From positions 7,440,001-7,504,000 of the forward strand of contig NC_134026.1 of assembly GCF_964204645.1 (NCBI RefSeq): a stretch of 64,000 nucleotides of DNA. Reading direction: 5' to 3'. This document shows positions 33,236 through 64,000 of the stretch, one piece after another. Each line of letters opens with the position of its first letter. Positions within the stretch are counted from its first letter, which is position 1. The notes under the pieces were generated by a model, which was given only the letters and a program-made list of their open reading frames with translations, did no database searches and was not told the origin of the DNA. Made by a program: the position numbers and the translations under genes. The DNA comes from Tubulanus polymorphus. Taxonomy: Eukaryota; Nemertea; Palaeonemertea; Tubulaniformes; Tubulanidae.

Positions 33236-33402
33236 TTGAGATCAATAGTTATTTGTCCGAATTTATACAGCGAATATTCACGAACTTCTCGCCCCAGTAA
33301 AAGATTTGTGTAGAAATTAACCACAAAGTTGCATACATGGAATTGTGCGAAAATATCGTATAGAAAATCTCTGTTCCGGTGGGATTGGTAAAAATACTGC
33401 AA
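33236..33402 (-). pseudogene. GPCR 3' fragment joined to leader repeats
   Basis: Read on the minus strand, this is the last TM6-TM7 and tail part of a receptor of the broken clade (compare 33,614-33,780), with altered frame. It is joined at about 33,402 to TGACTGTCTGAGAATG-type leader repeats that normally stand before a start codon. Most of the gene between leader and TM6 is therefore deleted. Confidence 0.75.
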
Positions 33403-33422
33403 GACTGTCTGAGAATGCACTG

Positions 33423-33475
33423 ACTGTCAAACCTTGGAGTAATCATTTGAAATGATTACTCCAAGGTTTGACAGT
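33423..33475. repeat. perfect 53-bp palindrome
   Basis: Two 26-bp arms around a single G. The arm begins ACTGTCAAACCTTGGAGTAA and carries the CCTTGGAGTAAT core seen at 1,500 and 30,946. It sits in leader repeats of the collapsed GPCR copy. Confidence 0.85.
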
Positions 33476-33613
33476 GTGACTGCGTGAGAGTGTACTGACT
33501 GTCTGATCTGATAGTGTACTGACCGTTGGAGGTACCGTACATCACTGAATGTCGCTGTAACCAGGTCGGGTTCAAGTTGTATGAAGTGAACCAAACTTGA
33601 GATCATTAGTTAT

Positions 33614-34572
33614 TTATTTGTCTGAATTTCTACAGCGGATTTTCATACAGAAATATTCACGAATTTCTCGTCCCAGTAAAATATATATGTAGAAATTAAC
33701 CACAAAGTTGCATACATGGAATTGTGCGAAAATATCGTATAGAAAATGTCTGTCAGTTGCGGTGACATTGGTAAAAATACTGTAATAGTGGATGGAAGTG
33801 TGAACATTGTAAATGCAAGTGAAACAGTAACAAGCATTATTGTTGTACGCTTGGATTTTGTAGTTTTCTGATCAGATGAAACCATTTTTGAACCCCTGAA
33901 CAACTGCATTGTTATAACAGAATTTGATGTAATGATTAAAGTAAAAGGTAGAATATTAACGTTGATGACAAATATGGAGAACACTTTTATTTGATCAATC
34001 AACAGATAAAAACATCCATAAAACTGGTCAGCAAAATGTACCGACAAAGTAGGTGTGAGATAGAGAACCAGTACATTTACTGCAGTAATTATCAAAATAG
34101 TAACTCTAGCGAATCTCGGTGTACATATCAAACGAGATTTGAACGGGAAAAGCACAACTGCCGCACGTTCTAGAGATACTGCTACTATTAGCCACGAACT
34201 GTTGACGACTGCAACCGCAAATACAAATTCATAGATTTGACAACTGATCAATGAATTCATGATGAAGATAGGACCACCTTTAACGTTGAAGAGAATAAAC
34301 TGTATAACAGGATTCAGTGTAAAACTGATGCAGTACCAAAAGTCACTGATAGACAAAACGATCAGATAGTTAGCGTAAGATAAACTGCAGAATCTATGAC
34401 TTATCATTATCAGGAAAGTAGCTGAATTTCCTATGCCTAAGGCTCCGAACAGAAACAAGACAGGCAGATTGCCCAATGACACGATACGGTAGATTTTGGA
34501 CTTGCTCACCACATACATCAGAACAATGTAACTGTTGTATGTTCGACCAATCTGCATCTGAGTAGAATTCAT
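33614..34572 (-). pseudogene. class A GPCR pseudogene (copy 4), frameshift in TM6-TM7 loop
   Basis: The frame is open from MNSTQMQ at 34,572 to 33,643. Near 33,750 an extra base relative to the paralogues turns the TEFLYDIF region into another frame, so TM7 and the tail are lost (309 residues ending NISV). The family stop in the original frame is at 33,614. A 6-bp insertion adds Gly-Ile in TM1 (GALGIGNSATF). TM3 reads ISCQIYEFVFAVAVVNSSW. An out-of-frame ATG 7 nt upstream opens a 64-codon overlapping frame. The upstream flank carries the 845-bp TTCTG array. Confidence 0.85.
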
Positions 34573-34625
34573 GATTCATGGAGATCAAATGAGAGTGAAC
34601 GGACTGTCCGAGAGAGCACTGCCTG

Positions 34626-35470
34626 TTCTGTTCTGTTCTGTTCTGTTCTGTTCTGTTCTGTGCTGTTCTGTTCTGTTCTGTTCTGTTCTGTTCTGTTCTG
34701 TTCTGTTCTGTTCTGTTCTGTTCTGTTCTGTTCTGTTCTGTTCTGTTCTGTTCTGTTCTGTTCTGTTCTGTTCTGTTCTGTTCTGTTCTGTTCTGTTCTG
34801 TTCTGTTCTGTTCTGTTCTGTTCTGTTCTGTTCTGTTCTGTTCTGTTCTGTTCTGTTCTGTTCTGTTCTGTTCTGTTCTGTTCTGTTCTGTTCTGTTCTG
34901 TTCTGTTCTGTTCTGTTCTGTTCTGTTCTGTTCTGTTCTGTTCTGTTCTGTTCTGTTCTGTTCTGTTCTGTTCTGTTCTGTTCTGTTCTGTTCTGTTCTG
35001 TTCTGTTCTGTTCTGTTCTGTTCTGTTCTGTTCTGTTCTGTTCTGTTCTGTTCTGTTCTGTTCTGTTCTGTTCTGTTCTGTTCTGTTCTGTTCTGTTCTG
35101 TTCTGTTCTGTTCTGTTCTGTTCTGTTCTGTTCTGTTCTGTTCTGTTCTGTTCTGTTCTGTTCTGTTCTGTTCTGTTCTGTTCTGTTCTGTTCTGTTCTG
35201 TTCTGTTCTGTTCTGTTCTGTTCTGTTCTGTTCTGTTCTGTTCTGTTCTGTTCTGTTCTGTTCTGTTCTGTTCTGTTCTGTTCTGTTCTGTTCTGTTCTG
35301 TTCTGTTCTGTTCTGTTCTGTTCTGTTCTGTTCTGTTCTGTTCTGTTCTGTTCTGTTCTGTTCTGTTCTGTTCTGTTCTGTTCTGTTCTGTTCTGTTCTG
35401 TTCTGTTCTGTTCTGTTCTGTTCTGTTCTGTTCTGTTCTGTTCTGTTCTGTTCTGTTCTGTTCTGTTCTG
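34626..35470. repeat. TTCTG pentanucleotide microsatellite, 169 units
   Basis: The array is 845 bp of pure TTCTG with one variant unit TGCTG at 34,661-34,665 (CAGAA on the GPCR strand). It starts about 50 bp upstream of the copy-4 start codon. At the equivalent place the paralogues have 6 units (43,211-43,240) and 2 units (about 52,553-52,562). The array has replaced a short stretch (CAGCAGAGTGTTCTAGATC) that both paralogues keep. The VLFCS-repeat ORFs are artefacts. Confidence 0.97.
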
Positions 35471-37953
35471 TTATCGGATAATTAATTCAACCTACCTTAA
35501 AGAAATTATTTAAGTCTTTATACTTCAGCTCCAATTCATTTGTCAGATGTATCAAATTCGTAAAATCTAACACAATTTACTCAGATTGAAACTTGACGTT
35601 TTATCATGTGAAACATGAATGTTACCAAGATATATATATGAACACTCATTGAACGAGAATTCATCGTAAATAATGGAATATATATATGTTACAGTAAAAC
35701 AGAACAGGCTGGAAAATATCTAACGGTTCTATAGAGAGAAAACACGGGTCAAAATAGCATCAGTTCATTATTCAACCACATGAATACACAGACCAACAGT
35801 ACCCACAGGAGTTCGCGGGGCTAAGTTCTTAATGGAATTATAACCTTGGATGGATTTGAACCCGGGCTTCTCACCTGCCAGCCTTGTATCTTAACACTTG
35901 ACAAACAAGTTCAGGCCATTGTCGATGACTTATCTAAACGACGGCATACACTTAGTCACAAAATCACAGACGATTTCGACCGTAATGTGACGACTTATTA
36001 TCTGATGGAGACTTACGTACACCTAGAAAATTGAGTTGGATATACAAATTGAGACTATGGGATAGAGATGACTTTAGTAATGAGACAACTTACGCAAATG
36101 ACGAGTTATATTTTGAAAACTGAATTTGAACCGTCGTTTTACTCTAGTTGTTATGGTGGGTGATTCGGGCCATGCTAGAAAATTTTTCTGTACGGCTAGA
36201 GCAACGATAAAAAAAATCACATTGGCCCGTTTTGTGGTTTTTCTCGCGCGATGACTCAAAATACGTTTTGTTTTCTCGGGCGATAATTCAAAACTTTTGT
36301 TGATTTTCTCGCGCGAGAAAACCAAAAGTTTTGAATTCTCGCCCGAGGAAATCAACCTTTTTCTACTGACTGTCTGAGAATGTTCTGGAACTGACCGTGT
36401 CTTCTTGAGTATTGGAAAATTCATTCAACTTTAATATAAAGATATCATTAAAGCCTTTATTGCAGCTACAATTCGTTTATAAAATGTCTATAGTTAGTAG
36501 CGAATAGAAAATAGATTCTCTGAAATCTAACACAATAAACTCAGATTTGTGAAAGTTTATTATTGTGTACGTAAAATGTTACTGCAATTTAAATTTCAAA
36601 TATTCGTCGTTAAATGGTGAAATATCGTATACATAGTACAACATCTGAACAGGTTGAAAAATATGTATCAGTTCTATACAGGGAAAACACAAAATAGCAT
36701 TTCATTATTCAACCACGAACAGGATAGTAGGCAGGACCCAGTTCCAAAGTTGTGAGTTAGAGTTAACTCTGAGTTAAAGTTAGTTCATTTTCAGTGATTT
36801 AACTGGATGGAACTGTGGAACTGGACCCAGGACTCCTCGTGGGCTCAAATTCTCAAGACTTCCTAAAATGTCATTTTTCCATTTTGTATTTGAACCTGGG
36901 CCTCTCGCAAGCCAGCCTTGTATCTAACGAATCGCGGATTCCACGTATGGCATGCGAAGATCCGGCCAGATTTGAGTCCGAATACGTTCTTCGATGTCGG
37001 GTAAGGTATGTTGCGAATGGACATCTCCCCCGGCAGATTGCCACGGTTCGCGCCGTGGCTGAGTGTAGCGATGCCATCAGGTTCGAATCCCTGCCGAGGG
37101 AGGATGCGAATCTACACGTATACACGGGACAGTTGTTTTGGTTTTCATTGAACTCGGTTCCAGTTCCAGTTGTACAGCTGTGATGGTTTGAACTCAGTTC
37201 CACAGTTGTGTGGGTTCAATTCTATCCTGAACCCAGTTCTACAGTTTTATGAATTAGATTTGACTCATAGTGGACGCAGTTCCACAGTTGTGTTGGCATA
37301 TTTAACTCTGAACCCAGTATGGGTTTTATTGGACTCCTGCTCCAGTTCCAATTGTGGCTTCTTTCATTGGACTTGATCCTGTTTGACAGTTGTGGGTTCA
37401 TTTTGACTGTTAACCCAGTTCACACATCTACTTGCTAAACCATGTTCACTGGTTTTTATGGGTTTAAGTCATTCAGATTTTAATTAGACTGCTGTCTGAA
37501 CAGTGCTGTGTGTATTGCTGGCAAACACGCGCTTTGATTAATTGAATATTTACTGTGAATTCAATAGAACAACAGTTAATGTAATGAATGGATGGAGAAT
37601 GTTAATTGTCCGAGGTTTTACATGTTCAAGAGTTGCACAAATCAAAAATGAAATGCAATTATTTACTGAATGTCACTGTAACCAGTCCGCAGTGGATCGA
37701 AGTGAGACGAATACTTTTTGCCCGCACCATCAACACATCCACACGTGAAAGCGCTGCCCGTAGCGTTATAGGTTGTCAGGCTAATAATTCCATTATCGAA
37801 GAAAACCTTTTCGGAATGGTTTTTTTTCGTTCTAAAGAAACGAAAAAATTGATTCTTTACCCCTTTGTACGAGTCTGTGAGTTGTGTGGACAATTAGAAT
37901 ACAAACAATGATTTGTGGAAAAGGAATTTTAATCCGAAGAATCATACTTGAAA
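35471..37953. other. intergenic flank with duplicated segments, tRNA-like pieces and foldbacks
   Basis: 35,471-36,660 matches 43,255-44,400 and 52,575-53,790, the upstream flanks of copies 6 and 10. It includes a tRNA-like piece (35,852-35,915), a CTCGGGCGATAATTC hairpin (36,255-36,360), a TTCCACAGTTGTG foldback (36,733-36,830), a B-box foldback (37,020-37,106) and a run of TTCCACAGTTGTG units (37,150-37,400). 37,440-37,953 matches the downstream flanks of copies 7 and 14. I see no gene. Confidence 0.7.
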
Positions 37954-38898
37954 TCAATGGTCTGAATTTCTACAGCGGATTTTCTTACAGAAATATTCAC
38001 GAATTTCTCGCCCCAGTAACAGATATATGTAAAAATTTACGACATAGTTGCACATTTGAAACTGTCCAAATATGTCATAGAGAAAATCTTTCTGTTTCTG
38101 TGAGTTTGGTAACAATACTGCAAAAGTAATTGGAAGTGTAAATACTGCAAATGCGAGTGAAACTGTTACAAGCATTATTGTTGTACGTTTTGATTTTGTA
38201 GTTTTCTGATCAGACGAAACCATTTTTGAACCTCTGAATAACTGAACTATTATGACAGAATTTGATGTTAGAATCAAAAATAAAGGCAGTACATAATTCT
38301 GGATGACAAATACCGTAAAATATGTTATTTGGTCAGAAAATTCATAGTAACATCCAAAAGACTGGTCGAAAAAATGTATCGAAAAAGTAGGAAGAAAATT
38401 GATAACCAGGACATTGACCGCAGTTAATGTTAATATAACAAATCTAGCGAACCTCGGTGTACATATCAAACGAGACGTGAACGGGAAGAGCACAACTGCT
38501 GCACGTTCTAGAGATATTGCTATTATAAGCCATGAACTGTTGCATTGAACAAGCGCCATTACAAATTCATAATATTGACAAATGATCAGTGAATTCATGA
38601 TGAATTTAGGACCTTCTTTAACGTGCAAGAGAACAAACTGTAAAACAGGCATCAGTGTAAAATTGATGCAGAATGTGAAATCGCTGAGAGACAAAACGAT
38701 TAGATAGTTAGCGTAAGATAAACTGCGGAATCTGCGGCTTATCATTATCAGGAAAGTAGCTGAATTTCCGAAGGCTCCTAACAAGAACACTAAAGGCAGA
38801 ATGACCAGTGACACAGTACGGTAGATTCCAGATCTCTTCGCAACAGACATCAGAACGGTATTACTAAGATAAGCAAGACCAATCTGAGTTGAATTCAT
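37954..38898 (-). CDS. orphan class A GPCR, intronless (copy 5)
   Basis: A 314-residue receptor with a shorter N-terminus (MNSTQIGLAYLSNTVLM). TM1 FGNSATF, TM2 LSLSDF, TM3 cysteine in IICQYYEF, then the variable stretch VMALVQCNSSW, ERAAVV, ECL2 SFGCYYEF, FTLP in TM6, NFYIY in TM7. Its closest relative is copy 9 (49,586), and the upstream flanks 38,899-39,560 and 50,531-51,245 are nearly identical, so the two come from one duplication. The start context CAAGAATCATG lacks the upstream out-of-frame ATG. Ligand unknown. Confidence 0.9.
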   Translation of the reverse strand: MNSTQIGLAYLSNTVLMSVAKRSGIYRTVSLVILPLVFLLGAFGNSATFLIMISRRFRSLSYANYLIVLSLSDFTFCINFTLMPVLQFVLLHVKEGPKFIMNSLIICQYYEFVMALVQCNSSWLIIAISLERAAVVLFPFTSRLICTPRFARFVILTLTAVNVLVINFLPTFSIHFFDQSFGCYYEFSDQITYFTVFVIQNYVLPLFLILTSNSVIIVQLFRGSKMVSSDQKTTKSKRTTIMLVTVSLAFAVFTLPITFAVLLPNSQKQKDFLYDIFGQFQMCNYVVNFYIYLLLGREIREYFCKKIRCRNSDH

Positions 38899-39525
38899 GA
38901 TTCTTGAGGATCAAATGAGAACTGATTGTCTGAAAGTGTTCTGACTGCCTTAGAGTGTAATGACTGTCTGAGAGTGTAACGATCTGAGAGTGTAACGGTC
39001 TGAGAATGTTCTGGAACTGACCGTGTCTTCTCGCGTATCGGAAAACTAATTTAACTTTGACATAAAAAAATCATTAAGTCTTTATTCCAGCTATAATTCA
39101 TTTGTGAAATTTATTGTTAACAGCGAATAGAAAAAATCAATTTTCAGAAATCTAACACAATGCACTCAGATTTTGTGAAAGTTTACATCGTGTAAAATAT
39201 AATATGTATAAAATATTTAATATCAATTTTCATTGTACAAGAATGTATTAAAATGGTGAAATATTTAATATCAAAAATTCTGAACATTTTGGAAAATATT
39301 TATCAGGACGGGACAGTAGCCAGGAGTTGTTTAGGGCTCAAGTTCTCAAGTTCTTATTTCCTTAAGGGTAATTTTTTCCATTTTCTTCAAAAAGACAAAA
39401 CGTGGAATGATAACCAGGTATGTGAATGTGGGTCCCTCGTCCTCCGGCCCTATATCTAACAACCAGACCGCCAGATTATGGCTGTGAGTCCGCTCAGTGT
39501 GGTGATCCAGTTAGCTCTGGTGAAA

Positions 39526-40505
39526 GGACTGATGGCCAGTCAGGTGTAGTGACTCGATTCATTTACATTAACTGCTATATAATTCTTTGATTTTTTTTGG
39601 TGAAAATGTGGTTACATTGCATTCACTTAATCAATTAGATCCGTTGACTCAATCCGTTCACTTTATCAATTAGATCCGTTGTACTGACCGTCTGAGAGTG
39701 TTCTGACTGTCTGAGAGTGTACTGACTGTCTGACAGTGTACTGACTGTCTGAAAGTGTACTGACTGTCTGATCTGACAGTGTACTGACCGTCTGACAGTG
39801 TGTTGACCGTTGGAGGTACCGTACATTACTGAATGTCGCTGTAACCAGTCGGGTTCAAGTTGTATGAAGTGAACCAAACTTGAGATCAATAGTTATTTGT
39901 CTGGATTTCTACAGCGGATTTTCATACAGAAATATTCACGAATTTCTCGCCCCAGTAAAAGATATATGTAGAAATTAACCACACTGACGGCCAGTCAGGT
40001 GTAGTGACTCGATTCATTTACATTAACTGCTATATAATTCTTTAATTTTTTCTGGTGAAAATGTGGTTACATTGCATTCACTTAATCAATTAGATCCGTT
40101 GACTCAATCCGTTCACTTAATCAATTAGATCCGTTGTACTGACCGTCTGAGAGCGTTCTGACTGTCTGAGAGTGTACTGACTGTCTGAAAGTGTACTGAC
40201 TGTCTGAGAGTGTACTGACTGTCTGAAAGTGTCCTGACTGTGTGAGAGTGTACTGACTGTCTGAAAGTGTACTGACTGTCTGACAGTGTACTGACTGTCT
40301 GAAAGTGTACTGACTGTCTGATCTGACAGTGTACTGACCGTTGGAGGTACCGTACATTACTGAATGTCGCTGTCCAGTCGGGTTCAAGTTGAATGAAGTG
40401 AACCAAACTTGAGATCAATAGTTATTTGTCTGAATTTCTACAGCGGATTTTCATACAGAAATATTCACGAATTTCTCGCCCCAGTAAAAGATATGTGTAG
40501 AAATT
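39526..40505. repeat. tandem duplication of a 458-bp intergenic unit
   Basis: The unit starting at ACTGATGGCCAGTCAGG (39,526) begins again as ACTGACGGCCAGTCAGG at 39,984. Each copy contains two ATCAATTAGATCCGTTG words, an array of TGACTGTCTGAGAGTG leader-type repeats, GGAGGTACCGTACATTACTG and the start of a GPCR 3' end. A single version is at 51,218-51,620. The ORFs reading QSVHSQTVST come from the leader repeats. Confidence 0.85.
39898..39983 (-). pseudogene. GPCR C-terminal fragment
   Basis: About 86 bp match the last codons of the receptors (TM7 tail LLLGREIREYF and the basic C-terminus). The fragment is cut off by the tandem duplication boundary at 39,984 and has no TM1-TM6. Confidence 0.8.
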
Positions 40506-43158
40506 AACCACAAAGTTGCAAACATGGAATTGTGCGAAAATATCGTATAGAAACTCTGTCAGTTGCGGTGACATTGGTAAAAATACTGTAATAGTGGATG
40601 GAAGTGTGAACATTGCAAATGCGAGTGAAACAGTAACAAGCATTATTGTTGTACGTGTTGGGAGAGTTCTCGGTCCAACACCACGGGGTTTCGGGCTCAC
40701 TCCACTGACAGGCGATGGGAGTGAGGAAGCGAGCGAGGAGGACTGTATAGGTTCTCGGACAGAAGCAAAGCAAAGGCCGGGCAGAAACAGAAGCCAGGCG
40801 GGTCGACAAGGCAGAAGCAAAGCCAGGCGGGTCACCAGACAGAAGCAAAATTAGCGAGTCGGCCAGAGTCACGTTCCCTGGTTGAAGCAGCAAGGCAGAG
40901 TCGTCGTCCTGTCCCTTGAAGCAGCCGTTCCTTTCGTCATGAAATGACTAACTTTAAGACTTTCTTCAGACTATAGCGATTTATTTAGCGGAGAGATGTG
41001 TACAGTCAGGCTTGGATAGATGAACTGATTTTACAGGATATTTGTTGCGGCTTTTATACAAAATCAGGCTGGGAACTAATTATGATTACAATCTGGTGAG
41101 AATGTTACAAACTGTCAAAATGTTACTATAAAAAGGATTAAAATATACAAACGAGAGAACAGGCACAGTCTTAAACTAGTTAGAAACAAGAAAATTAACT
41201 TTAATAAATTATTTGACGCCTGCGAAAAAATGTAGAATTTCTGGTATAAGCTAATGTGGAATTGCAAATTTGAAATCGAAGTTTTAAGAAATTTCGGGAA
41301 TTATGAGATTTGGCGATTGGGTAGATGATACAGTCTTCGACTGGTCTAATAAAAAAAAATTGTCAACTTGTGACTTCGATTCACTTTTGCCTCTAAGCTG
41401 GTCTGCAACTTCATTACCTCCATGGTTGAAGAAAGAGCTCTTCTGATGTCTGCTTCATCATGACTTTGAGCATATCGTGTAGCCAGCCAGCCCAGTCCTG
41501 GGGCCCGGTCTGGCTGTCACTTGATATCCTAGACTTGAGTCTGGGTTGAAGTAGACATTGTCATATAATTAACTTATTCATGTTATTCTGTATGAAATTA
41601 CCCGTGTGTCTTGTATTTTCTTATTTTAAAATTTGTAAATGTATTGATTTTTGGAATTTTATCCCGGAATTTCAATGTAATAAGGATCAATAAAGTATTG
41701 AATTTAATTGTCACCTTATACACATGCCATCAGTGGACGCGGAGCCGTATATGACAGCTATGCTATAATAAATTGCTAATCTCATGAAACCTGCATACGT
41801 CTAATATCGAACATATTTTCTAAAACATTTGAATATTGAAATTATTTTACACGTTTTTATATAGACCGCTTGTAGCCGCCGATGAAATTCACGCCGGCCC
41901 TACTCAGATCGTAGATAGCTTCGTCATTCCACTAGCAGCCCAATGTCAGGGTCTGACTTTTATATCAGACTTCCAAATCGTGTATACATCCGCCATTTAA
42001 CCGAATGATCCGATTTACTTATCATTTCTATTTATCCCTGCCGCTCCTGATATAATCATACATCCTTTACTATTACAATACGTCTTCTCATGATATTCAA
42101 TGCGATATAACATTTCGACGTTCAAATAGAGGTCATTATATAATCCCAGGGAGCCATTCTACATCTTTATCAATAATATTTTGCCATATAGCTTGTATGT
42201 GTACACATAAACCTGTGACGTTTTGCACATCGATTTACGGTTGTCGTTTGTAAAATGACGCTGAATGGTTATCATTGTTTAGGTTTCATAATGGTAACGT
42301 TTTATAAGGCGTCAAACAAAATAATACACGTGTTATTGATTATGAAACGCGAGTTCACACGGGATCTCGGTGGTAACCAGGTCCACGCGCACTATAGCCA
42401 TCTGGCTTCGATAAACTGTTGTAACGGTTACAACGGTACGTTTGGATTTTGTAGTTTTCTGATCAGATGAAACCATTTTTGAACCCCTGAACAACTGAAT
42501 TGTTATAACAGAATTTGATGTAATGATTAAAGTAAAAGGTAGAATATTAACGTGGATGACAAATATGGAGAACACTTTTATTTGATCAATCAACAGATAA
42601 AAACATCCATAAAACTGGTCAGCAAAATGTACCGACAAAGTAGGTGTGAGATAGAGAACCAGTACATTTTACTGCAGTAATTATCAAAATAGTAACTCTA
42701 GCGAATCTCGGTGTACATATCAAACGAGATTTGAACGGGAAAAGCTCAACTGTCGCACGTTCTAGAGATACTGCTACTATTAGCCACGAACTGTTGCCGA
42801 CTGCAACCGCAAATACAAATTCATAGATTTGACAACTGATCAATGAATTCATGATGAAGATAGGACCACCTTTAACGTTGAAGAGAATAAACTGTATAAC
42901 AGGATTTAGTGTAAAACTGATGCAGTACACAAAGTCACTGATAGACAAAACGATCAGATAGTTAGCGTAAGATAAACTGCAGAATCTATGACTTATCATT
43001 ATCAGGAAAGTAGCTGAATTTCCTAAGGCTCCGAACAGAAACAAGACAGGCAGAATCCCCAGTGACGCGATACGGTAGATTCTGGACTTGCTCACCACAG
43101 ACCTCAGAACAATGTAACTGTTGTATGTTCGACCAATCTGCATCTGAGTAGAATTCGT
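40422..43158 (-). pseudogene. class A GPCR pseudogene (copy 6) split by a 1.78-kb insertion
   Basis: The N-terminal part lies at 42,436-43,158 and the TM6-tail part at 40,422-40,655, with a foreign segment between. Three lesions are visible: the family start codon is changed ATG to ACG (43,156-43,158), one extra T at 42,667-42,670 shifts frame in TM4, and the insertion splits the gene at the base of TM6 (after TTKSKRT). It belongs to the clade of copies 4 and 10. The leader has 6 TTCTG units. Confidence 0.9.
40656..42435. mobile_element. 1.78-kb insertion in GPCR copy 6, probable retroelement
   Basis: The sequence GTACG stands on both sides (40,651-40,655 and 42,436-42,440) and occurs once in intact relatives, consistent with a 5-bp target duplication. 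The left end begins TGTTGGGAGAG; on the minus strand this reads ...CCCAACA, an LTR-like terminus. The opposite end (ACAACG) is not a perfect partner. The interior has GC-rich GCAGAAGCAAAGCCAGGCGG repeats (40,760-40,850) and AATAAAGTATTGAATTTAA near 41,690, which resembles a LINE 3' end, so it may be composite. No long ORF is present. Confidence 0.6.
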
Positions 43159-43254
43159 GATTCATGGAGATCAAATGAGAGTGAACGGACTGTCCGAGAG
43201 AGCACTGCCTGTTCTGTTCTGTTCTGTTCTGTTCTGTTCTGCAGCAGAGTGTTC

Positions 43255-44928: not shown

Positions 44929-45879
44929 TCAATGGTCTGAATTTCTACAGCGGATTTTCTTACAGAAATAATCACGAATTTCTCGCCCCATTAACAGATA
45001 TATGTAGAAATTTACCACAAAGTTACACATTTGAAACTGTGCAAATATGTCAAAAAGAAATTCTCTCTGTTCTGCTGAGATTGGTAAAAATGTAGCAATA
45101 GTGGATGGAAGTGTAAATATTGCAAATGCGAGTGAAACTGTTACAAGCATTATTGTTGTACGTTTTGATTTTGTAGATTTCTGATCGGACGAAACCATTT
45201 TTGGACCTCTGAATAACTGAATTATTATTACAGAATTTGATGCAATGATCAAGATTAATGGTAACAGATAAACGTGGACAACAAATAAGGAGAAAAATTT
45301 TATTTGGTCGAATGATTCATAATAACATCCAAAGAACTTGTCAGTAAAATGTATCGAAACTGTTGGTAGAAGAATGGGAACCAGTACATTTACTGCAGTT
45401 ATTATCAATATAACGAATCTAGCGAATCTCGGTGTACATATCAAACGAGATGTGAACGGGAAGAGCACAACTGCCACACGTTCTAGAGATATTGCTACTA
45501 TTAACCACGTACTATTGCTGCATGCAACCGCAAATACACATTCGTAGAGTTGACAACTGATCAGTGAATTCACGATGTATATTGGACCTGTTTTCAAATG
45601 CAAGAGAACAAACTGTAAAACAGGATTCAGTGTGAAGTTGATACAGAACGTGAAATCACTGAGAGACAAAACGATGAGGTAGTTAGCGTAGGACAAACTG
45701 CGGAATCTGTGACTTATCATTATCAGGAAAGTAGCTGAATTTCCAAACGCCCCAAACAGGAACAAAATAGGCAAAGTGACCAGTGACACAGTTCGGTAGA
45801 TTGCTGACCTGTTCACTAGAGACATGAGAACAATGTAACTGTTATAAGTTCGGCCGATTTGCATCTGAGTTGAATTCAT
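44929..45879 (-). CDS. orphan class A GPCR, intronless (copy 7)
   Basis: A 316-residue receptor. Residue marks: GN 46-47 (TM1), D75 (TM2), C109 (TM3), ERV 133-135 where the family has ERA, C185 (ECL2), a basic third loop 224-240 containing SSDQKSTKSKR, FTLP 255-258, NFYIY 290-294 and tail cysteines 306 and 311. TM3 reads CQLYECVFAVACSNSTW. It is nearly identical to copy 14 (60,991), with five differing residues. The upstream flank is 45,880-46,290. The downstream flank 44,414-44,928 is shared with copies 5 and 14. Confidence 0.9.
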   Translation of the reverse strand: MNSTQMQIGRTYNSYIVLMSLVNRSAIYRTVSLVTLPILFLFGAFGNSATFLIMISHRFRSLSYANYLIVLSLSDFTFCINFTLNPVLQFVLLHLKTGPIYIVNSLISCQLYECVFAVACSNSTWLIVAISLERVAVVLFPFTSRLICTPRFARFVILIITAVNVLVPILLPTVSIHFTDKFFGCYYESFDQIKFFSLFVVHVYLLPLILIIASNSVIIIQLFRGPKMVSSDQKSTKSKRTTIMLVTVSLAFAIFTLPSTIATFLPISAEQREFLFDIFAQFQMCNFVVNFYIYLLMGREIRDYFCKKIRCRNSDH

Positions 45880-46650: not shown

Positions 46651-46813
46651 TCCATTTTATTTTCCGAGTTTGTAACTCGGAATAAACCTTCAAAGATCGC
46701 ATTTAACAGAGAAAACTAGTTTATTCCGAGTTGCAAACTCTGAATAAACCTCCAAAATCGCATTTAACTGAGAAAACTAGTTTATTCCGAGTCACAAACT
46801 CGGAATTAACCTC
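46651..46813. repeat. about 2.6 tandem units of 62 bp, each with a hairpin
   Basis: Units contain TTATTCCGAGT..ACTCGGAATAAACC followed by ATCGCATTTAAC and GAGAAAACTAG. CCGAGTTTGTAACTCGG is self-complementary. The identical array is repeated at 62,713-62,875 as part of the large duplication. Confidence 0.8.
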
Positions 46814-51554: not shown

Positions 51555-52500
51555 TTATTTGTCTGAATTTCTACAGCGGATTTTCATACAGAAATATTCA
51601 CGAATTTCTCGCCCCAGTAAAAGATATGTGTAGAAATTAACCACAAAGTTGCACACATGGAATTGTGCGAAAATATCGTATAGAAACTCTGTCTGTTGCG
51701 GTGACATTGGTAAAAATACTGTGATAGTGGATGGAAGTGTGAACATTGCAAATGCGAGTGAAACAGTTACAAGCATTATTGTTGTACGTTTGGATTTTGT
51801 AGTTTTCTGATCAGATGAAACCATTTTTGACCCTCTGAACAACTGAATTGTTATAACAGAATTTGATGTAATGATCAAAGTAAAAGGTAGAATATTAACG
51901 TGGATAACAAATATGGAGAACACTTTTATTTGATCAATCAACAGATAAAAACATCCATAAAACTGGTCAGCAAAATGTACCGACAAGTGTGAGATAGAGA
52001 ACCAGTACATTTACTGCAGTAATTATCAAAATAGTAACTCTAGCGAATCTCGGTGTACATATCAAACGAGATTTGAACGGGAAAAGCACAACTGCCGCAC
52101 GTTCTAGAGATACTGCTACTATTAGCCACGAACTGTTGCAGACTGCAACCGCAAATACAAATTCATAGATTTGACAACTGATCAATGAATTCATGATGAA
52201 GATAGGACCACCTTTAACGTTGAAGAGAATAAACTGTATAAGAGGATTCAGTGTAAAACTGATGCAGTACACAAAGTCACTGATAGACAAAACGATCAGA
52301 TAGTTAGCATAAGATAAACTGCGGAATATATGACTTATCATTATCAGGAAAGTGGCTGAATTTCCTAAGGCTCCGAACAGGAACAAGACAGGCAGAATGC
52401 CCAGTGACACAGTGCGGTAGATTCTGGACTTGCTCACCACAGACATCAGAACAATGTAACTGTTGTATGTTCGACCAAACTGCATCTGAGTAGAATTCAT
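51555..52500 (-). pseudogene. class A GPCR pseudogene (copy 10), 5-bp deletion
   Basis: The frame is open from MNSTQMQFG at 52,500 to TM4, then breaks. Relative to copies 4 and 6, five bases (around CGACAA|GTGTG, 51,986) are missing, so the second half (51,555-52,010: ECL2, TM5-TM7, tail) lies in another frame. The second half is otherwise perfectly open to the family stop. Start codon intact; a 70-codon out-of-frame ORF overlaps the N-terminus. Only 2 TTCTG units in the leader. An assembly error could mimic this lesion. Confidence 0.88.
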
Positions 52501-55989: not shown

Positions 55990-56940
55990 TTATTTGTCTG
56001 GATTTCTACAGTGGATTTTCATACAGAAATACTCACGAATTTCTCGTCCCAGTAAAAGATATATGTAGAAATTAACCATATAGTTACACATTTGAAACTG
56101 TGTGAAAATATCATATAAAAAATCTCTCCGTTGCGGTGAGATTGGCAAAAACGTAGTAATAGTGGATGGAAGTATAAATATTGCAAATGCGAATGAAACT
56201 GTTACAAGCATTATTGTTGTACGTTTTGATTTTGTAGTTTTCTGATCAGACGAAACCATTTTTGAACCTCTGAATAACTGAACTATTATAACAGTATTTG
56301 ATGTAATAATCAAAGACAACGGAAGTATATAAACGTGGGTGACGAATATGGTAAAGACTATTATTTGGTCAAACAATTTAAAGTAGCATCCGAAAAACTG
56401 GTCAGTAAAATGTATCGACAAAGTTTGTAGAAGATTTATAACCAGGACATTTACTGTAGTGATTGTCATTATAGCAAATCTAGCGAATTTCGGTGTACAT
56501 ATCAAACGAGATGCGAACGGGAAGCGCACAACTGCCGCACGTTCTAGAGATATGGCTACTATTAACCAAGAACTATTGCTGCTTGCAAGTAGCATTACAA
56601 ATTCATAGATTTGACAACTCAGCAGAGAATTCATCATGAATATAGGACGATCTAGAACGTGAAGGAGAACAAACTGTAAGACAGGCATCAGTGTTAAACT
56701 AATGCAGTACATAGAATCACTGAGAGACAAAACGATAAGATAGTTAGCGTAAGATAGACTGCGGAATCTGCGACTAATCATAATCAGAAAAGTAGCTGAA
56801 TTTCCGAAGGCTCCTAAGAAGAACAAAGTCGGCAGAATGACCAGTGACACAGTATAGTAGATTCCAGACCTATTCACCACAGACATGAGAACGATGTAAC
56901 TGCTGTAAGTTCGACCAATCGCAATCTGAGTAGAATTCAT
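55990..56940 (-). CDS. orphan class A GPCR, intronless (copy 11)
   Basis: A 316-residue receptor. The ORF extends three codons further (MSL), but the family start MNSTQ at 56,940 is preferred. TM1 FGNSATF, TM2 LSLSDSMYC (the Asp kept, the usual Phe replaced), TM3 LSCQIYEFVMLLASSNSSW, ERAAVVRFPFASR (an Arg and an Ala where others have Leu and Thr), TPKFARF, ECL2 FFGCYFK, TM6 FILP, TM7 NFYIY. An array of GTGTGAGAGTGTACTGA leader repeats lies upstream (56,960-57,150). Ligand unknown. Confidence 0.9.
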   Translation of the reverse strand: MNSTQIAIGRTYSSYIVLMSVVNRSGIYYTVSLVILPTLFFLGAFGNSATFLIMISRRFRSLSYANYLIVLSLSDSMYCISLTLMPVLQFVLLHVLDRPIFMMNSLLSCQIYEFVMLLASSNSSWLIVAISLERAAVVRFPFASRLICTPKFARFAIMTITTVNVLVINLLQTLSIHFTDQFFGCYFKLFDQIIVFTIFVTHVYILPLSLIITSNTVIIVQLFRGSKMVSSDQKTTKSKRTTIMLVTVSFAFAIFILPSTITTFLPISPQRRDFLYDIFTQFQMCNYMVNFYIYLLLGREIREYFCMKIHCRNPDK

Positions 56941-57828
56941 GAGGCTCAAATGAGAGGTTACTGACTGAGTGACAGCGTACTCACTGCGTGAGAGTGTGCG
57001 GACCGTGTGAGAGTGTGCGTACCGTGTGAGGGTGTACTGATTGTGTGAGAGTGTACTGATTGTGTGAAAGTGTACTGACTGTGTGAGAGTGTACTGACTG
57101 TCTGAGAATGTACCGACGACTGTCTGAGAGTGTGCTGACTGTCTGAGAATGTTCTGGAACTGACCGTGTCTTCTGGCATATTGGAAAACAAATCTTGCGT
57201 TGTTATGAATACATTATCAACCTCTTTATTAAAGCTACAATTCATTTGTAAGATTTATTATTATCTGTAAATAGAAAATCAATTCTCAGAAATCTGACGC
57301 AATTTACTCAGATTTTGTGAAAGTTTATTATTGTGTAAGATATATATGTAACTGAATTAAATACTAATATTCGTCGTACAAGAATTCATTGTAAATGGTA
57401 ATAAATGTTATAGTAAAACATCTGAACAGGTTGGAAAATATTTCATCTGTTCGTTGATCCTACGAGCAATTATCCAACGGAAGTTACGGTAGATCGTCTG
57501 CTGCGTCTGTTTTGTTACGATCGTCTGTGGTTGGTCTAGAACTAGTTCCGGTTCCGTTGCGGGTAACGGGTACTCTCAATAGTTTCTATCGTTCCATCCT
57601 CACTATCCACAGTCGGTTCCTCATGGCAGTTAGTATTCACGTGATTTCAGCCCTTTTGATTCAGGAAAAAAGCAATTGAATTGATATCAATGACTGAGTG
57701 GCTGCTTTGCGGCCATCTTGTGAGGAGTTAAAAAACCAACTGCAATCGATAACATAAAATTACGAAACGATGAATTACCAGATTTTTAGTTTTTGATCAG
57801 CACTTAACCCGAGAATAAAATATAATGC

Positions 57829-57900
57829 AGGTTCTACCGAGATTCGAACTCGGGCTACTGGATTCAAAGTCCAATGTGCTAACCACTACACCATAGAACC
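57829..57900 (-). tRNA. tRNA-Gln (anticodon TTG)
   Basis: A complete 72-nt cloverleaf: the acceptor GGTTCTA pairs perfectly with TAGAACC, the D arm has GTGTAGTGGTTAGCAC, the anticodon loop is CTTTGAA (TTG) on stem TTGGA/TCCAG, and the T arm is CCGAGTTCGAATCTCGG. The discriminator is T, as in other eukaryotic tRNA-Gln. No intron; CCA is not encoded, as expected. A TTTT terminator follows about 9 nt downstream (57,817-57,820). The A and B boxes are intact, so it is likely functional. Confidence 0.93.
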
Positions 57901-58205
57901 ATATGTTATCAGACACAGTTCTGAGCCTAGTTTATCGCTTCTTTGAGCTGGTCAGCGTGGGAGTCAAGGTCCCTTTGAATAAACTTGTTTGGTAATATTT
58001 CGTATTGTATTTCTAGTTTTATGTCTAGGGGAGGAGGGGGCTGCTCTGGATGACTATCGGGATAAAATCTTGAACGTCGAAACCTTGAATCGATAAATCA
58101 TTAGCAAAGAAACTCCTCGTTTTATTAGTCTGGGATTCTCTATCGTTACAACACGTTAAAGTGTTTCACCAATGGTTGTATGCAGTGAATCTAACATGAA
58201 ACCAA

Positions 58206-58300
58206 TGATATTCACGAATTTCTCGTCCCAGTAAAAGATATAAGTAAAAATTTACCACATAGTTACACACATTTGAAACTGTCCACAAATGCCGTAGGAA
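58206..58300 (-). pseudogene. GPCR C-terminal fragment
   Basis: The TM7-tail region (matching CNYVVNFYIYLLLGREIREY with changes) survives over about 90 bp, without the rest of a receptor. The sequence to the right, up to 58,550, has no further similarity that I can see. Confidence 0.75.
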
Positions 58301-58882: not shown

Positions 58883-59833
58883 TTATTTGACTGAATTTCT
58901 ACAGCGAATTTTCGTACAGAAATATTCACGAATTTCTCGTCCCAGTAGAAGATATATGTAAAAATTAACTACATAGTTAAACATAAAGAATTGTGTAAAT
59001 ATATCATAAAGAAAATCTCTCTGTTCCACTGAGATTGGTAAAAATGTAGCTATAGTGGATGGAAGTGTAAATATTGCAAATGCGAGTGAAACTGTTACAA
59101 GCATTATTGTTGTACGTTTTGCTTTTGTAGTTTTCTGATCAGACGAAATCATTTTTGAACCTCTGAATAACTGAACTATTATAACAGAATTTGACGCTAG
59201 AATCAGAATTAACGGTAACAGGTAAATATAAATGACTATTATGACGAAAAATTTTATCTGGTCAAACAATTTGTAGTAACATCCAAAAAACCGGTCGGTA
59301 AAATGTATGGACAATGCCGGTGTAAGATTCATAACCAGTACATTCACTGCAGTAATTATCAACATAGTAAATCTAGCGAATCTCGGTGTACATATCAAAC
59401 GAGATGTGAACGGGAAGAGCACAACTGCCGCACGTTCCATAGATATTGCTACTATTAACCACGAACTATTGCAGGCTGCAAGGTTCATTGTAAATTCATA
59501 TGTTTGACAACTGATCAGTGAATTCATGATGAATATTGGACCATCTTTAACGTGCAAGAGAACAAACTGTAAAACAGGCAACAGTGTATAATTGAAACAG
59601 TACGTGAAATCACAGAGAGACAAAACGATAAGATAGTTAGCGTAAGATAAACTGCGGAATCTGCGACTTATCATTATCAGGAAAGTAGCTGAATTTCCGA
59701 AGGCTCCTAACAGGAACACGATAGGCAGAATGACCAGTGGCACAGTGCGGTAGATTCCTGACCTGTTCACCACAGACATGATGACTATGTAACTGTTATA
59801 AGTTCGGCCGATTTGCATCTGAGTTGAATTCAT
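58883..59833 (-). CDS. orphan class A GPCR, intronless (copy 13)
   Basis: A 316-residue receptor. TM2 LSLCDF, TM3 ISCQTYEFTMNLAACNSSW, SMERAAVV, the third loop slightly changed (KMISSDQKTTKAKR), TM6 FTLP, TM7 MFNYVVNFYIY where the usual Cys is Phe. The start codon has the upstream out-of-frame ATG. The upstream flank is 59,834-60,200. It is a possible donor for a short patch in copy 14 (RFARFT). Confidence 0.9.
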   Translation of the reverse strand: MNSTQMQIGRTYNSYIVIMSVVNRSGIYRTVPLVILPIVFLLGAFGNSATFLIMISRRFRSLSYANYLIVLSLCDFTYCFNYTLLPVLQFVLLHVKDGPIFIMNSLISCQTYEFTMNLAACNSSWLIVAISMERAAVVLFPFTSRLICTPRFARFTMLIITAVNVLVMNLTPALSIHFTDRFFGCYYKLFDQIKFFVIIVIYIYLLPLILILASNSVIIVQLFRGSKMISSDQKTTKAKRTTIMLVTVSLAFAIFTLPSTIATFLPISVEQRDFLYDIFTQFFMFNYVVNFYIYLLLGREIREYFCTKIRCRNSVK

Positions 59834-60200
59834 GATTCATGAGTATCAAATATTCTGCCTGAGAGTGTACTGACTGTGTGAGAGTGTATACTGACTCTCT
59901 GAGAGTACTGAATGTACAGGCTGACCGTGTCTTCCCGCGTATCGGAAAATATATTTATTACAGTAATATAAAGAAATCATTAAAGTCTTTATTAAAGCTA
60001 CAATTCATTTGTGAGATTTATTGTTAATAGCGATTAGAAAATCAATTCTTAGAAACCTAACTCAATTTACTTTGATATCGTGAAAGTTTATTATTCGGTA
60101 AAATATTGATTTCTAAATCAAATATAAATATACGTTGTACAAGGATTTATTGTAAGTGGTGAACTATCTTATAGTAAATCGTCTGAACTGGTTGCATAAT

Positions 60201-60990
60201 GTCTCTCGTCAGTTCTATACAGAGAAATCACAGGTATAATTGCATCGGTTCATTATTCAACTACATAGATACACAGGACAGTTGTTTGGGTTTCATTGGT
60301 TCCAGTTGTACAGCTGTGACGGCTTGAACCCATTTCCACAGTTGTGTGGGTTTAATTCGACTGTGATCCCAGTTCCAGTTCCAGAGTTGTGTGGGTTCAA
60401 TTTGACTGTTAACCCAGTTCACATAGTCTACGTATATTTTGATCAACTTGCTAGAAGTCTAAATTTTGATCAACTTGCTAGATAGACCATGTTAACAACT
60501 GGTTTTAGGGGTTTTTACGCCATTCGGATTTAAATTAGACTGCTGTTTGAACAGTGTTGTGCGTATTGCTGGCAAACACGCGCTTTGATTAATTGAACAT
60601 TTACTGTGAATTCAATAGAACAACAGTTAATGTAATGAATGGATGGAGAATTTTAAAGGTTTTACATGTTTAAGAGTTGTACAAATCAAACATGAAATGC
60701 TATCATTTATTGAATGTCACTGTAGCCAGTCCGCAGTGGATCGAAGTGAGACGAGTACGTTTTGCCGGCACCATCAACACACCCACACGTGAAAGCGCCG
60801 CCCGTAGCGTTATAGGTTGTCAGGCTAATAATATCACTATCGAGGAAACCTTTTCGGAATGGTTTTTTTTTCGTTCTAAAGAAACGAAAAAATTGATTCT
60901 TTACCCCGAGTCTGTGTGTTGTGTGGACAATTAGAATATAAACAATGATTTGTGGAAAAGGAATTTTAATCCGAAGAATCATACTTGATA
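60201..60990. other. intergenic spacer, TTCCACAGTTGTG units then duplicated flank
   Basis: 60,290-60,420 holds several TTCCACAGTTGTG-type units as at 37,150-37,400. From 60,477 on the sequence is the second copy of 44,414 onwards. The segment around 60,720-60,840 (CACCATCAACACACCCACAC) is conserved also at 37,680-37,800, but has no intact long frame. Confidence 0.65.
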
Positions 60991-61941
60991 TCAATGGTCT
61001 GAATTTCTACAGCGGATTTTCTTACAGAAATAATCACGAATTTCTCGGCCCATTAACAGATATATGTAGAAATTTATCACAAAGTTACACATTTGAAACT
61101 GTGCAAATATGTCAAAAAGAAATTCTCTCTGTTCTGCTGAGATTGGTAAAAATGTAGCAATAGTGGATGGAAGTGTAAATATTGCAAATGCGAGTGAAAC
61201 TGTTACAAGTATTATTGTTGTACGTTTTGATTTTGTAGATTTCTGATCGGACGAAACCATTTTTGGACCTCTGAATAACTGAATTATTATTACAGAATTT
61301 AATGCAATGATCAAGATTAATGGTAACAGATAAACGTGGACAACAAATAAGGAGAAAAATTTTATTTGGTCGAATGATTCATAATAACATCCAAAGAACT
61401 TGTCAGTAAAATGTATCGAAACTGTTGGTAGAAGAATGGGAACCAGTACATTTACTGCAGTTATTATCAATATAGTAAATCTAGCGAATCTCGGTGTACA
61501 TATCAAACGAGATGTGAACGGGAAGAGCACAACTGCCGCACGTTCTAGAGATATTGCTACTATTAACCACGTACTATTGCTGCATGCAACCGCAAATACA
61601 CATTCGTAGAGTTGACAACTGATCAGTGAATTCACGATGTATATTGGACCTGTTTTCAAATGCAAGAGAACAAACTGTAAAACAGGATTCAGTGTGAAGT
61701 TGATACAGAACGTGAAATCACTGAGAGACAAAACGATGAGGTAGTTAGCGTAGGACAAACTGCGGAATCTGTGACTTATCATTATCAGGAAAGTAGCTGA
61801 ATTTCCAAACGCCCCAAACAGGAACAAAATAGGCAAAGTGACCAGTGACACAGTTCGGTAGATTGCTGACCTGTTCACTAGAGACATGAGAACAATGTAA
61901 CTGTTATAAGTTCGGCCGATTTGCATCTGAGTTGAATTCAT
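60991..61941 (-). CDS. orphan class A GPCR, intronless (copy 14)
   Basis: A 316-residue duplicate of copy 7. The five differences are ERA for ERV at 133-135, RFT for RFV near 155, ALNS for ASNS in TM5, TTIIL for TTIML at the start of TM6, and NFVIN for NFVVN in TM7. All family marks are kept. The first two differences make it resemble copy 13. The upstream flank 61,942-62,350 matches 45,880-46,290. Confidence 0.9.
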   Translation of the reverse strand: MNSTQMQIGRTYNSYIVLMSLVNRSAIYRTVSLVTLPILFLFGAFGNSATFLIMISHRFRSLSYANYLIVLSLSDFTFCINFTLNPVLQFVLLHLKTGPIYIVNSLISCQLYECVFAVACSNSTWLIVAISLERAAVVLFPFTSRLICTPRFARFTILIITAVNVLVPILLPTVSIHFTDKFFGCYYESFDQIKFFSLFVVHVYLLPLILIIALNSVIIIQLFRGPKMVSSDQKSTKSKRTTIILVTVSLAFAIFTLPSTIATFLPISAEQREFLFDIFAQFQMCNFVINFYIYLLMGREIRDYFCKKIRCRNSDH

Positions 61942-63090
61942 GATTCTCGCAAATCAAATGAGAGTGAACTGACTGTCTGAGAGTCTACTGACTATCTGCG
62001 AGTTTACTGGCTGTCCGAGAGTATGCTGACTGCCAGTGAGAGCAATGACTATCTGAAAATGTACTGGAACTCGACCGCGTCTTCTCACGGCTTGCAAAAT
62101 TAATTCAAAGATATCATTTAGGTCTTTATATACAGTTACATTCATTTCTAAGATTTATTGTAAACAGCGAATAGAAAATCAATGCACTGAAATCTAACAC
62201 ACATTTTCAAATTTTGTGAAAGTTTATTATTGTGTAAAATATAAATGTAACTATATCAAATATCATTATACGTTGTACGAGAATTCATTGTAAATTGTAA
62301 AATATATTATACTAAAACATCTGAACAGGTTGGAAAATGTACACACAGATCAAAACAACATCAGTTCATTATTAAACTACACACAGGACAGTAGCCAGCA
62401 ATACTCAAGGGCTCATAGTTGTGACGGGCATCTATGATTTATCGAAATGACTACTTATACTTAGTAAATTGAATTGCAAAAACATTTTGAGACTCAAACC
62501 GGGAGATGACTCTAGTAATGTGAGAACTTAGATGGTGACTTAAGCAAGAAAATCTAAAATGTCATTTATGTAATTTATGAATATAAAATTCTTTTGTATT
62601 TAAGATTTTCATATCTTATTTTCAATTTTCAGTTAGTCAGTGTCTACCATTCCTGAGTTAGTTTTTAATTTTGATGCTCATGGCCAAAAGAGCACATTTT
62701 TTCTCCAAAGTTTCCATTTTATTTTCCGAGTTTGTAACTCGGAATAAACCTCCAAAGATCGCATTTAACAGAGAAAACTAGTTTATTCCGAGTTGCAAAC
62801 TCTGAATAAACCTCCAAAATCGCATTTAACTGAGAAAACTAGTTTATTCCGAGTCACAAACTCGGAATTAACCTCGAAATATTTTTTTGATAGATATGTC
62901 GCCAGGACGCTTCCGTAGGTACCAATGCAGTAATGGTGATTAGAAATTACTGAATGTCACTGTAACCTACGAGCAATTATCTAACAATTATCTTAGATAA
63001 TCGCTCGTAGCTGTAACAGGTCCACAGAAGAGTTAAAAGTTGTATGCAGTAACTCAAACTTGAAATGAATGGTTATTTGTCTGAATTGCT

Positions 63091-64000
63091 TCAGCGGATT
63101 TTCATACAGAAATATTCACGAATTTCTCGTCCCAATAAAATATATATGTAGAAATTTACCACGTAGTTACAAACATGGAATTGTGTGAATATATTGTATA
63201 GAAAATTTCTCCGTTCCAATGGGATTGGTACCAATGCAGTAATAGTGACTGGAAATGTGAATATTGCAAATGCTAGTGAAACTGTTACAAGCATTATTGT
63301 TGTACGTTTTGATTTTGAAGAATTCCGATCAGACGAAACCATTTTTGACCCTCTGAATAACTGAACTATTATAACAGAATTTGATAGAATGATTATTATA
63401 AACGGTAAAAGATAGATATGGGTGATACCTACGATACGATAGGTTATTTGGTGAAGCGATTGAAAGTAACACCCAAAAAAAGACTGTTCAGTAAAATGTA
63501 TCGAAAAAGTAGGTAGAAGATTTATAACAAGTACATTCACTCCAGTCATTATCAATATAACAAATCTAGCGAATCTCGGGGTACATATCAAACGAGATTT
63601 GAACGGGAAGAGCACAACTGCTGCACGTTCTAGAGATATTGCTACTATAGACCACGAACTATTGAAGACTGCAAGGTACATTATAAATTCATAGGTTTGG
63701 CAACTGATCAGTGAATTCATCATGAATATAGGACCATTTTCAGCGTGGAAGAGAACAAACTGCAAAACAGGCATCAGTGTAAAACTGGTGCAGAACGTGA
63801 AATCACAGAGAGACAAAATGATAAGATAGTTAGCGTAAGATAAACTGCGGAATCTGCGACTTATCATTATCAGGAAAGTAGCTGAATTTCCAAACGCTCC
63901 AAACATGAACACGATAGGCAGAATGACCAGTGACAAAGTGCGGTAGATTCCAGACTTGTTCACTACAGACATTAGAACGATGTTACTGTTATAAGTTCGA
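63091..64000 (-). CDS. orphan class A GPCR (copy 15), 5' end beyond window, premature stop
   Basis: Duplicate of copy 8, cut by the window edge after the codons following RTYNS; by alignment the start would lie about 26 bp outside. The only coding changes seen are a Val-to-Ile in TM1 and a TGT-to-TGA change at 63,091-63,093 that removes the last six residues (CSNSDK). The seven helices are complete, so the protein may still work without its terminal cysteine. Confidence 0.88.
   Translation of the reverse strand, partial: RTYNSNIVLMSVVNKSGIYRTLSLVILPIVFMFGAFGNSATFLIMISRRFRSLSYANYLIILSLCDFTFCTSFTLMPVLQFVLFHAENGPIFMMNSLISCQTYEFIMYLAVFNSSWSIVAISLERAAVVLFPFKSRLICTPRFARFVILIMTGVNVLVINLLPTFSIHFTEQSFFGCYFQSLHQITYRIVGITHIYLLPFIIIILSNSVIIVQLFRGSKMVSSDRNSSKSKRTTIMLVTVSLAFAIFTFPVTITALVPIPLERRNFLYNIFTQFHVCNYVVNFYIYILLGREIREYFCMKIR

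Follow-up and report, generated by a model that had tools for sequence, protein, structure and literature searches.

What kind of receptor family occupies the 64-kb stretch C2:7440001-7504000 (the window, in which positions are counted from the first base), where closely similar one-exon genes and broken copies stand on a single strand, and how far do its signature motifs set it apart? The stretch lies in a 267.8-Mb genome of 77 contigs, the bulk of which is made up of 12 contigs of 11.5-32.1 Mb. Its receptor genes belong to a family that numbers, remnants included, about 400 similar one-exon members and extends over every large chromosome. With rather more confidence than doubt, we regard this family as a lineage-specific expansion of class A G-protein-coupled receptors (GPCRs) that would derive from peptide receptors and most likely forms a chemoreceptor set.

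Class A membership, as proposed in the initial annotation, is confirmed by a hidden Markov model profile check, in which Pfam 7tm_1 matched ten of ten proteins above its cut-off (48-68 bits versus 30.5). The motifs described there (ERA, F(T/I)(L/F)P and NFYxY, with retention of the Asn of transmembrane helix 1 (TM1), the TM2 Asp and the cysteines of TM3 and extracellular loop 2 (ECL2)) are likewise real and nearly fixed across 80 intact copies, comprising 71 loci fetched from the genome and the nine intact genes of the window. Residue labels were set by the anchor of each helix, and the labelled residues are read with their established roles in class A receptors. Positions 3.49-3.51 read ERA in 66 copies, ERV in 12 and ERG in two; positions 6.47-6.50 read FTLP in 59, FTIP in five, FILP in five and other combinations in 11, with threonine at 6.48 in 72 and isoleucine in five; and positions 7.49-7.53 read NFYIY in 75, NFYVY in three and NFYTY in two, so that F7.50 is invariant (80/80). 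N1.50, D2.50 and C3.25 are kept in all copies and the ECL2 cysteine in 79, while E3.49, R3.50, P5.50, P6.50, N7.49 and Y7.53 are each present in 80/80 and F6.44 in 79/80. The sodium-site residues D2.50, S3.39, N7.45 and N7.49 occur jointly in 78 copies, and an N-terminal sequon is found in every one. W4.50, W6.48, P7.50 and Y5.58, which are usual but not obligatory in class A receptors, many of them lacking at least one, are not retained by the family: position 5.58 is asparagine in 80/80, and the proteins encoded by the nine intact window genes contain no tryptophan in their TM4 segment.

The size of the family was estimated with two independent coding markers, which matched 390 and 419 genomic sites (at most three mismatches each, broken copies counted); since the reversed controls gave 0, these matches are not attributable to chance. 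A genome search with one protein, in which the best 126 of 1833 candidates were scored, placed copies on each of the 12 large contigs and on a single small one; among the matches listed, identity was at least 74% and 122 of the 126 had no internal stop. Eighty loci were then available for comparison, 60 from the scored list and 20 from marker sites absent from it, and an intact open reading frame (ORF) of 305-325 codons was found in 71 of them: 20/20 in L001-L020, 12/20 in L021-L040, the marker-only picks, and 39/40 in L041-L080, the first and last groups having been chosen in favour of intact copies. Two further open frames of 304 and 344 aa fell outside the length limits and were dropped. 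The closest copy lies on the same contig for 39 of the 80 (shuffled mean 11.3, maximum 24), an arrangement that is usual for chemoreceptor families. All of the 17 closest nearest-neighbour cases (dS, the synonymous divergence, below 0.299) lie within one contig, and recent duplication has therefore been mostly intra-contig.

The initial annotation had further held that the motifs were rewritten in this particular family and that they are rarely all changed together, and neither statement is supported by comparison with other receptors of the same genome. The comparison set consisted of 60 other class A matches, of which 58 had a scored frame and 50 had frames of at least 250 aa that were aligned; as they were taken from among the highest 7tm_1 scores, canonical receptors are favoured in this sample. 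W6.48 is present in 22 of the 50 rows (absent in 28), P7.50 in 29 and Y5.58 in 33. Thirteen of the 50 lack W6.48 and carry F7.50, and 12 of these 13 also have N5.58; they do not represent 13 independent cases, because L113, L122 and L123 are near-copies. The least shared change is alanine at 3.51: two of the 50 have it, L132 (ERA) and L135 (DRA), and each of them belongs to the 13. The flatworm family PROF1, discussed below, combines F...T.P with NF..Y. When 20 family members were placed in a tree together with the 50 other receptors, the family formed one clade on a long stem (Shimodaira-Hasegawa-like approximate likelihood ratio support, SH-aLRT, 100), a result obtained within its own genome, the only animal genome in the comparison. 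It is nested inside a 33-row group (support 99) that contains the 20 family members, 12 of the 13 receptors with F7.50 and without W6.48, and L140, a broken, tryptophan-bearing row on a long branch; the thirteenth such receptor, L121, is placed elsewhere. After removal of the motif columns, the same 12 and L140 still join the family (support 92, with eight family members), in a tree whose long branches meet and whose details are unsure. Because these relatives group with the family even without the motif columns, the simplest interpretation is that the lack of W6.48, Y5.58 and P7.50 marks a wider receptor clade in this genome and was inherited by the family. The motif-based argument for novelty thus mostly fails, and its correction, by which these losses belong to the broader clade, is of use in itself.

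Variability is very unevenly distributed along the receptor. Across the 80 copies, entropy is lowest in cytoplasmic loop 2 (0.21 bits), followed by loop 1 (0.36), loop 3 (0.48) and helix 8 with the C-terminus (0.66), and it amounts to 0.41 bits in the inner helix halves, whereas the outer loops reach 1.2-1.5 bits (ECL2, 1.27). The 28 putative pocket positions, assigned by generic residue numbering, average 1.48 bits, compared with 1.10 at 64 other outer-half helix positions (permutation p 0.014, TM4 excluded). Variability within the helices is greatest at three positions, which correspond to 3.33, 5.40 and 3.36. Pairwise ratios of nonsynonymous to synonymous divergence (dN/dS) have a median of 0.30 over 3160 pairs, and the family is under purifying selection. 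By region, the ratio is 0.38 in the pocket, 0.31 at other outer positions and 0.16 in the inner halves, and in the 797 pairs with dS below 0.45 the pocket value is 0.54; in the per-codon list, codons with undefined values were ignored. The pattern is that of a relaxed and diversified pocket, without proof of positive selection.

A large, clustered, one-exon family with broken copies, a pocket more variable than the other outer helix positions and nearly constant cytoplasmic loops has the traits of a chemoreceptor set, and in this respect the initial annotation holds. The copies present one nearly constant cytoplasmic face, formed by ER at 3.49-3.50, loop 2 with the sequence SRLICTPRFAR, loop 3 and helix 8, together with the same sodium-site residues; since the cytoplasmic loops are nearly the same, the copies probably couple to one G protein, which would be common to all of them. 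The outer halves of TM3, TM5, TM6 and TM7, which vary from copy to copy, would set ligand choice, and signalling may proceed through E/R3.49-3.50, P5.50/F6.44, N7.49 and Y7.53 rather than through a tryptophan toggle, with chemosensory use as the presumptive role. Several observations weigh against this interpretation. Positive selection was sought and none was demonstrated, the pocket ratio of 0.38 over all pairs having a bootstrap range of 0.20-0.63. Within the outer halves, the pocket stands out to a modest degree, and this comparison omits TM4, which offered no anchor. Helix 8 and the C-terminus are less constant than the cytoplasmic loops. AlphaFold models of nine window proteins reached a mean predicted local distance difference test (pLDDT) score of 36, and because these models were too poor, the pocket positions rest on generic numbering. 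Finally, the nearest solved sequences are those of the galanin 2 and CCK-A receptors (E ~1e-8), so that the stock of the family appears peptide-receptor-like and an internal peptide role is conceivable.

This last point leads to the strongest alternative, in which the family would be an expanded set of receptors for neuropeptides or other internal signals, for instance reproductive or developmental peptides, with no chemosensory function. In addition to the galanin 2 and CCK-A matches, a related receptor of the same genome, L131, is nearest to opioid and galanin receptors, and a planarian NPY-type receptor is reported to be needed in reproductive development (PMC4862687). The 390 and 419 marker sites speak against such a role, as does the very uneven variability, in which the pocket is the most changed. 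To our knowledge, peptide receptor families are rarely this large. We consider this alternative unlikely, albeit worth keeping in mind, and continue to favour a chemoreceptor set.

A second alternative concerns the way in which the family spreads, and it draws on the sequences flanking the genes. In the window, a tandem array with a period of 19 bp (once 21) precedes all nine intact genes, starting 11-32 bp upstream of the ATG; its unit, on the gene strand, is CTCTCAGACAGTCAGTACA. The arrays extend over 8505-8574 (beginning 18 bp before the start codon of the gene at 7534-8487), 10823-10883 (upstream of 9851-10801), 38930-39009 (upstream of 37954-38898), 45897-45970 (upstream of 44929-45879), 47982-48063 (upstream of 47011-47964), 50553-50695 (upstream of 49586-50530), 56951-57156 (upstream of 55990-56940), 59859-59906 (the array called with period 21, upstream of 58883-59833) and 61959-62032 (upstream of 60991-61941). 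Three more 19-bp arrays occur at 39680-39810 and 40135-40338, each adjoining a gene fragment, and at 51367-51471, where the array separates a receptor gene from a frameshifted copy. Beyond the window, a two-unit pattern has 187 occurrences in the genome (reversed control 0), and the 100 places listed resolve into 32 arrays. For 16 of these, the ATG of a listed family member lies no more than 300 bp away, always in the same orientation. Two further arrays, at C2:7874844 and C2:8663384, were found by hand to have a neighbour on the list of the second marker; the other 14 have no neighbour among the genes listed, and some of them adjoin fragments. The unit (at least 14 of 19 positions) is present in the last 200 bp upstream of 51 of the 80 copies, as compared with 1/80 shuffles and 0/80 downstream stretches (of at most 100 bp), while the commonest upstream 9-mer is found in 38/80 copies versus 7/80 in shuffled sequence. 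The minisatellite is therefore linked to the family genome-wide, with about one-third of the copies lacking it.

Homology between copies on different contigs is short, running at most from about -440 to 50 bp beyond the stop codon in nearly all pairs examined. Among the closest pairs with 2-kb flanks, 60 in number, 40 join different contigs (dS 0.30-0.38), and in 38 of these 40 homology begins between -4 and -439; the remaining two reach further upstream, one of them at other receptor genes, and downstream coverage never exceeds 47 bp. Simulated neutral flanks were detected in 60/60 cases at a dS of 0.3, 41/60 at 0.45 and 15/60 at 0.54. Since a neutral flank at a dS of about 0.3 should remain detectable, the copied units were short or, alternatively, intergenic DNA is replaced rapidly. 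These boundaries, together with the presence of copies on all 12 large contigs, are what a short mobile or retrocopied cassette (at most about 430 bp upstream, the ORF and about 20 bp) would produce, much of the family then being passenger DNA. However, the dN/dS of 0.30 and the intact ORFs in 71/80 fetched loci, including 12/20 of the marker-only picks, speak against passenger DNA, and intergenic turnover could exceed the simulated rate. Outside the core, the flanks of 20 dispersed loci find a match in few other copies unless they contain a further receptor gene or gene piece, and some copies share, as judged by eye, a longer 3' stretch of 75-100 nt, so that the putative cassette has no single fixed end. 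Retroposition was set aside as a candidate, because visual inspection of the 95 nt that follow the stop codons showed no poly-A. Taken together, mobile or retrocopied passenger DNA is an improbable account of the family.

Synonymous divergence within the coding sequence is unevenly distributed, with a dS of 0.255 in the cytoplasmic loops and helix 8 versus about 0.7 in the outer helices. Particularly conspicuous are codons 139-149 (33 nt of cytoplasmic loop 2), a block selected after inspection as the lowest of 114 windows: their relative synonymous diversity is 0.07, whereas 144 other codons of high conservation reach 0.39 (p 2e-6 in a rank test). A 32-mer over these codons, exemplified by 59388-59419 in the window, has 419 genomic matches, and all 100 that were listed are without mismatch. 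Constraint at the regulatory or RNA level could be responsible, as could local homogenisation. A test for gene conversion of the pairwise homoplasy index (PHI) type, which is confounded by the strong regional rate differences, revealed no excess of local compatibility and hence no recombination signal: shuffles at or below the observed value numbered 300/300 for the 80 copies (the opposite direction), 258/300 for 20 dispersed copies and 36/300 for the nine window copies. On a more speculative view, to which we give little credence, the family may both travel and be regulated as a compact cassette, with at most about 430 bp of upstream sequence, often a minisatellite at the ATG and a 33-nt element at codons 139-149 held at the DNA level over about 400 copies, for example as a common site for receptor choice or silencing.

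The least tenable alternative, which we regard as very doubtful, would place the family within srw proper (PF10324), the chemoreceptors of nematodes and other protostomes. In its favour, one of ten family proteins exceeds the srw cut-off (27.7 versus 22.2 bits), the relatives L124 and L137 score 83.5 and 53.3 on this profile, and srw is reported across protostomes (PMC3963977). Against it, nine of the ten are below the cut-off or unmatched, two pass the Srsx cut-off instead and 7tm_1 outscores srw in all ten.

Within the window, the receptor content amounts to nine intact one-exon ORFs (314-317 aa), one ORF crossing the edge, three frameshifted copies and four fragments, all on the minus strand. 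The intact genes occupy 7534-8487 (317 aa, one exon), 9851-10801 (316 aa from the conserved ATG, or 347 aa if an in-frame upstream ATG is used), 37954-38898 (314 aa), 44929-45879 (316 aa, with ERV in place of ERA), 47011-47964 (317 aa), 49586-50530 (314 aa), 55990-56940 (316 aa), 58883-59833 (316 aa, the reference for residue numbers) and 60991-61941 (316 aa). The ORF at 63091-63999 extends past the right edge; it ends a few codons before the stop of its near-twin at 47011, and homology continues to 63076. Nine intact genes and one at the edge agree with the ten intact or nearly intact minus-strand genes of 314-317 codons counted in the initial annotation, a whole-window figure that takes in 7534-8487 and 9851-10801, both outside 33236-64000. 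Its three pseudogenes correspond to the frameshifted copies at 33617-34572, 42438-43155 and 51558-52500, but in place of the three fragments claimed, four were recovered by homology at E <=1e-3, at 33274-33414 (query residues 258-304), 39896-39982 (residues 288-316), 40425-40667 (residues 236-316) and 58190-58300 (residues 274-310).

Traces of recent change are visible among these genes. The gene pair 44929/47011 (44929-47964) recurs at 60991/63091 (60991-64000), as in a recent tandem duplication of about 16 kb, and the genes at 44929-45879 and 60991-61941 are nearly identical (dS 0.009). The gene at 58883 is repeated at 100% identity 16 kb further on (C2:7514838-7515785), within the same duplication. 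A near-pure (CTGTT)170 array at 34623-35472 begins 51 bp upstream of the ATG of the frameshifted copy at 33617-34572, and a short (CTGTT) array at 43209-43241 adjoins another frameshifted copy. Further tandem arrays with 20-25 bp units are located at 1531-2415, 20305-20706 and 22619-22794. Among the non-receptor frames, 10 of the 30 longest of which were compared with Pfam, a dynactin-type coding stretch lies on the plus strand at 20751-21074, between two receptor blocks (Pfam Dynactin, 40.5 bits, cut-off 25.6), and is probably an exon of a dynactin p150-like gene. A tRNA-Gln(TTG) gene occupies 57829-57900 on the minus strand, between two receptor genes.

How does this family compare with known systems? 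Among the papers listed in searches of the open-licence literature, no description of it or of a receptor-linked minisatellite was found. A parallel in motifs is PROF1 (platyhelminth rhodopsin orphan family 1, which includes some planarian Srfb members), an intronless, lineage-specific orphan family with 19 and 47 proteins in two flatworms and, as reported, no significant homology to known GPCRs (PMC3261222). Group II of PROF1 is characterised by [F/V]...T.P in TM6, [N/D]F..[Y/F] in TM7 and DR[L/V] in TM3, with [H/N] in place of the TM2 Asp (PMC3261222, Table 3). Compared by these motifs, the present family is similar in its one-exon genes, T6.48 in 72/80 (F...T.P) and NF..Y in 80/80, but differs in ER[A/V/G] and in D2.50 in 80/80, and, unlike PROF1, it matches 7tm_1 well. 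Concerning the animal itself, a Hox cluster of ten homeobox matches on one strand spans about 316 kb at C6:5318225-5634756. One of its genes has KLNGPN after the homeodomain and another IKELN, which we take to be the marks of spiralian Lox5 and Lox4/Lox2 (UbdA-type), respectively. The animal is therefore likely to be a spiralian, and an intact cluster here presumably counts against a flatworm.

Among molluscs, the Aplysia families AcCRb and AcCRc are one-exon, rhodopsin-like and partly clustered, with 38 and 24 full-length genes; AcCRb proteins have 319-364 aa and 43-92% identity, DRY is changed to ERC, and transcripts were found in the rhinophore and oral tentacle for AcCRb and in the oral tentacle for AcCRc (PMC2700072). 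The present family resembles these in its single exon, partial clusters and altered DRY, and differs in having ERA rather than ERC. In Biomphalaria, 241 clustered candidate chemosensory GPCR genes, one shown in the tentacle, fall into 14 subfamilies (PMC5440852). The planarian Srf/w genes, a peptide-receptor-related, chemoreceptor-like group of protostomes, number 199 in four subclusters (PMC4862687). The Biomphalaria set, as described there, consists of many subfamilies, in contrast to the one close family found here, and the srw profile, to which Srf/w relates, fits the family poorly (1/10 over the cut-off, never the best match). Vertebrate odorant receptors are likewise encoded by one exon, form clusters, include many pseudogenes and carry an N-terminal sequon. 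Their TM6 motif is altered (KAFSTCxSH) and D(E)RY and NPxIY are kept (PMC12294341), whereas the present family keeps neither; the likeness considered here is one of traits.

Against this background, the family appears to be of an ordinary kind at a large scale, a lineage's own and probably chemosensory class A expansion nested in a clade from which the proline of NPxxY and the tryptophan toggle were already missing. Less to be expected were its association with a minisatellite and the nearly frozen coding block in loop 2; with these two features, it becomes possible to test whether a large receptor family is under coordinated control. If it does form a chemoreceptor set, it would offer a natural mutagenesis series in which one nearly fixed G-protein face is combined with many pockets, and it would be large and close-knit in comparison with the 38 and 24 genes of Aplysia, the 241 genes in 14 subfamilies of Biomphalaria and the 199 planarian genes in four subclusters, as given in the sources consulted.

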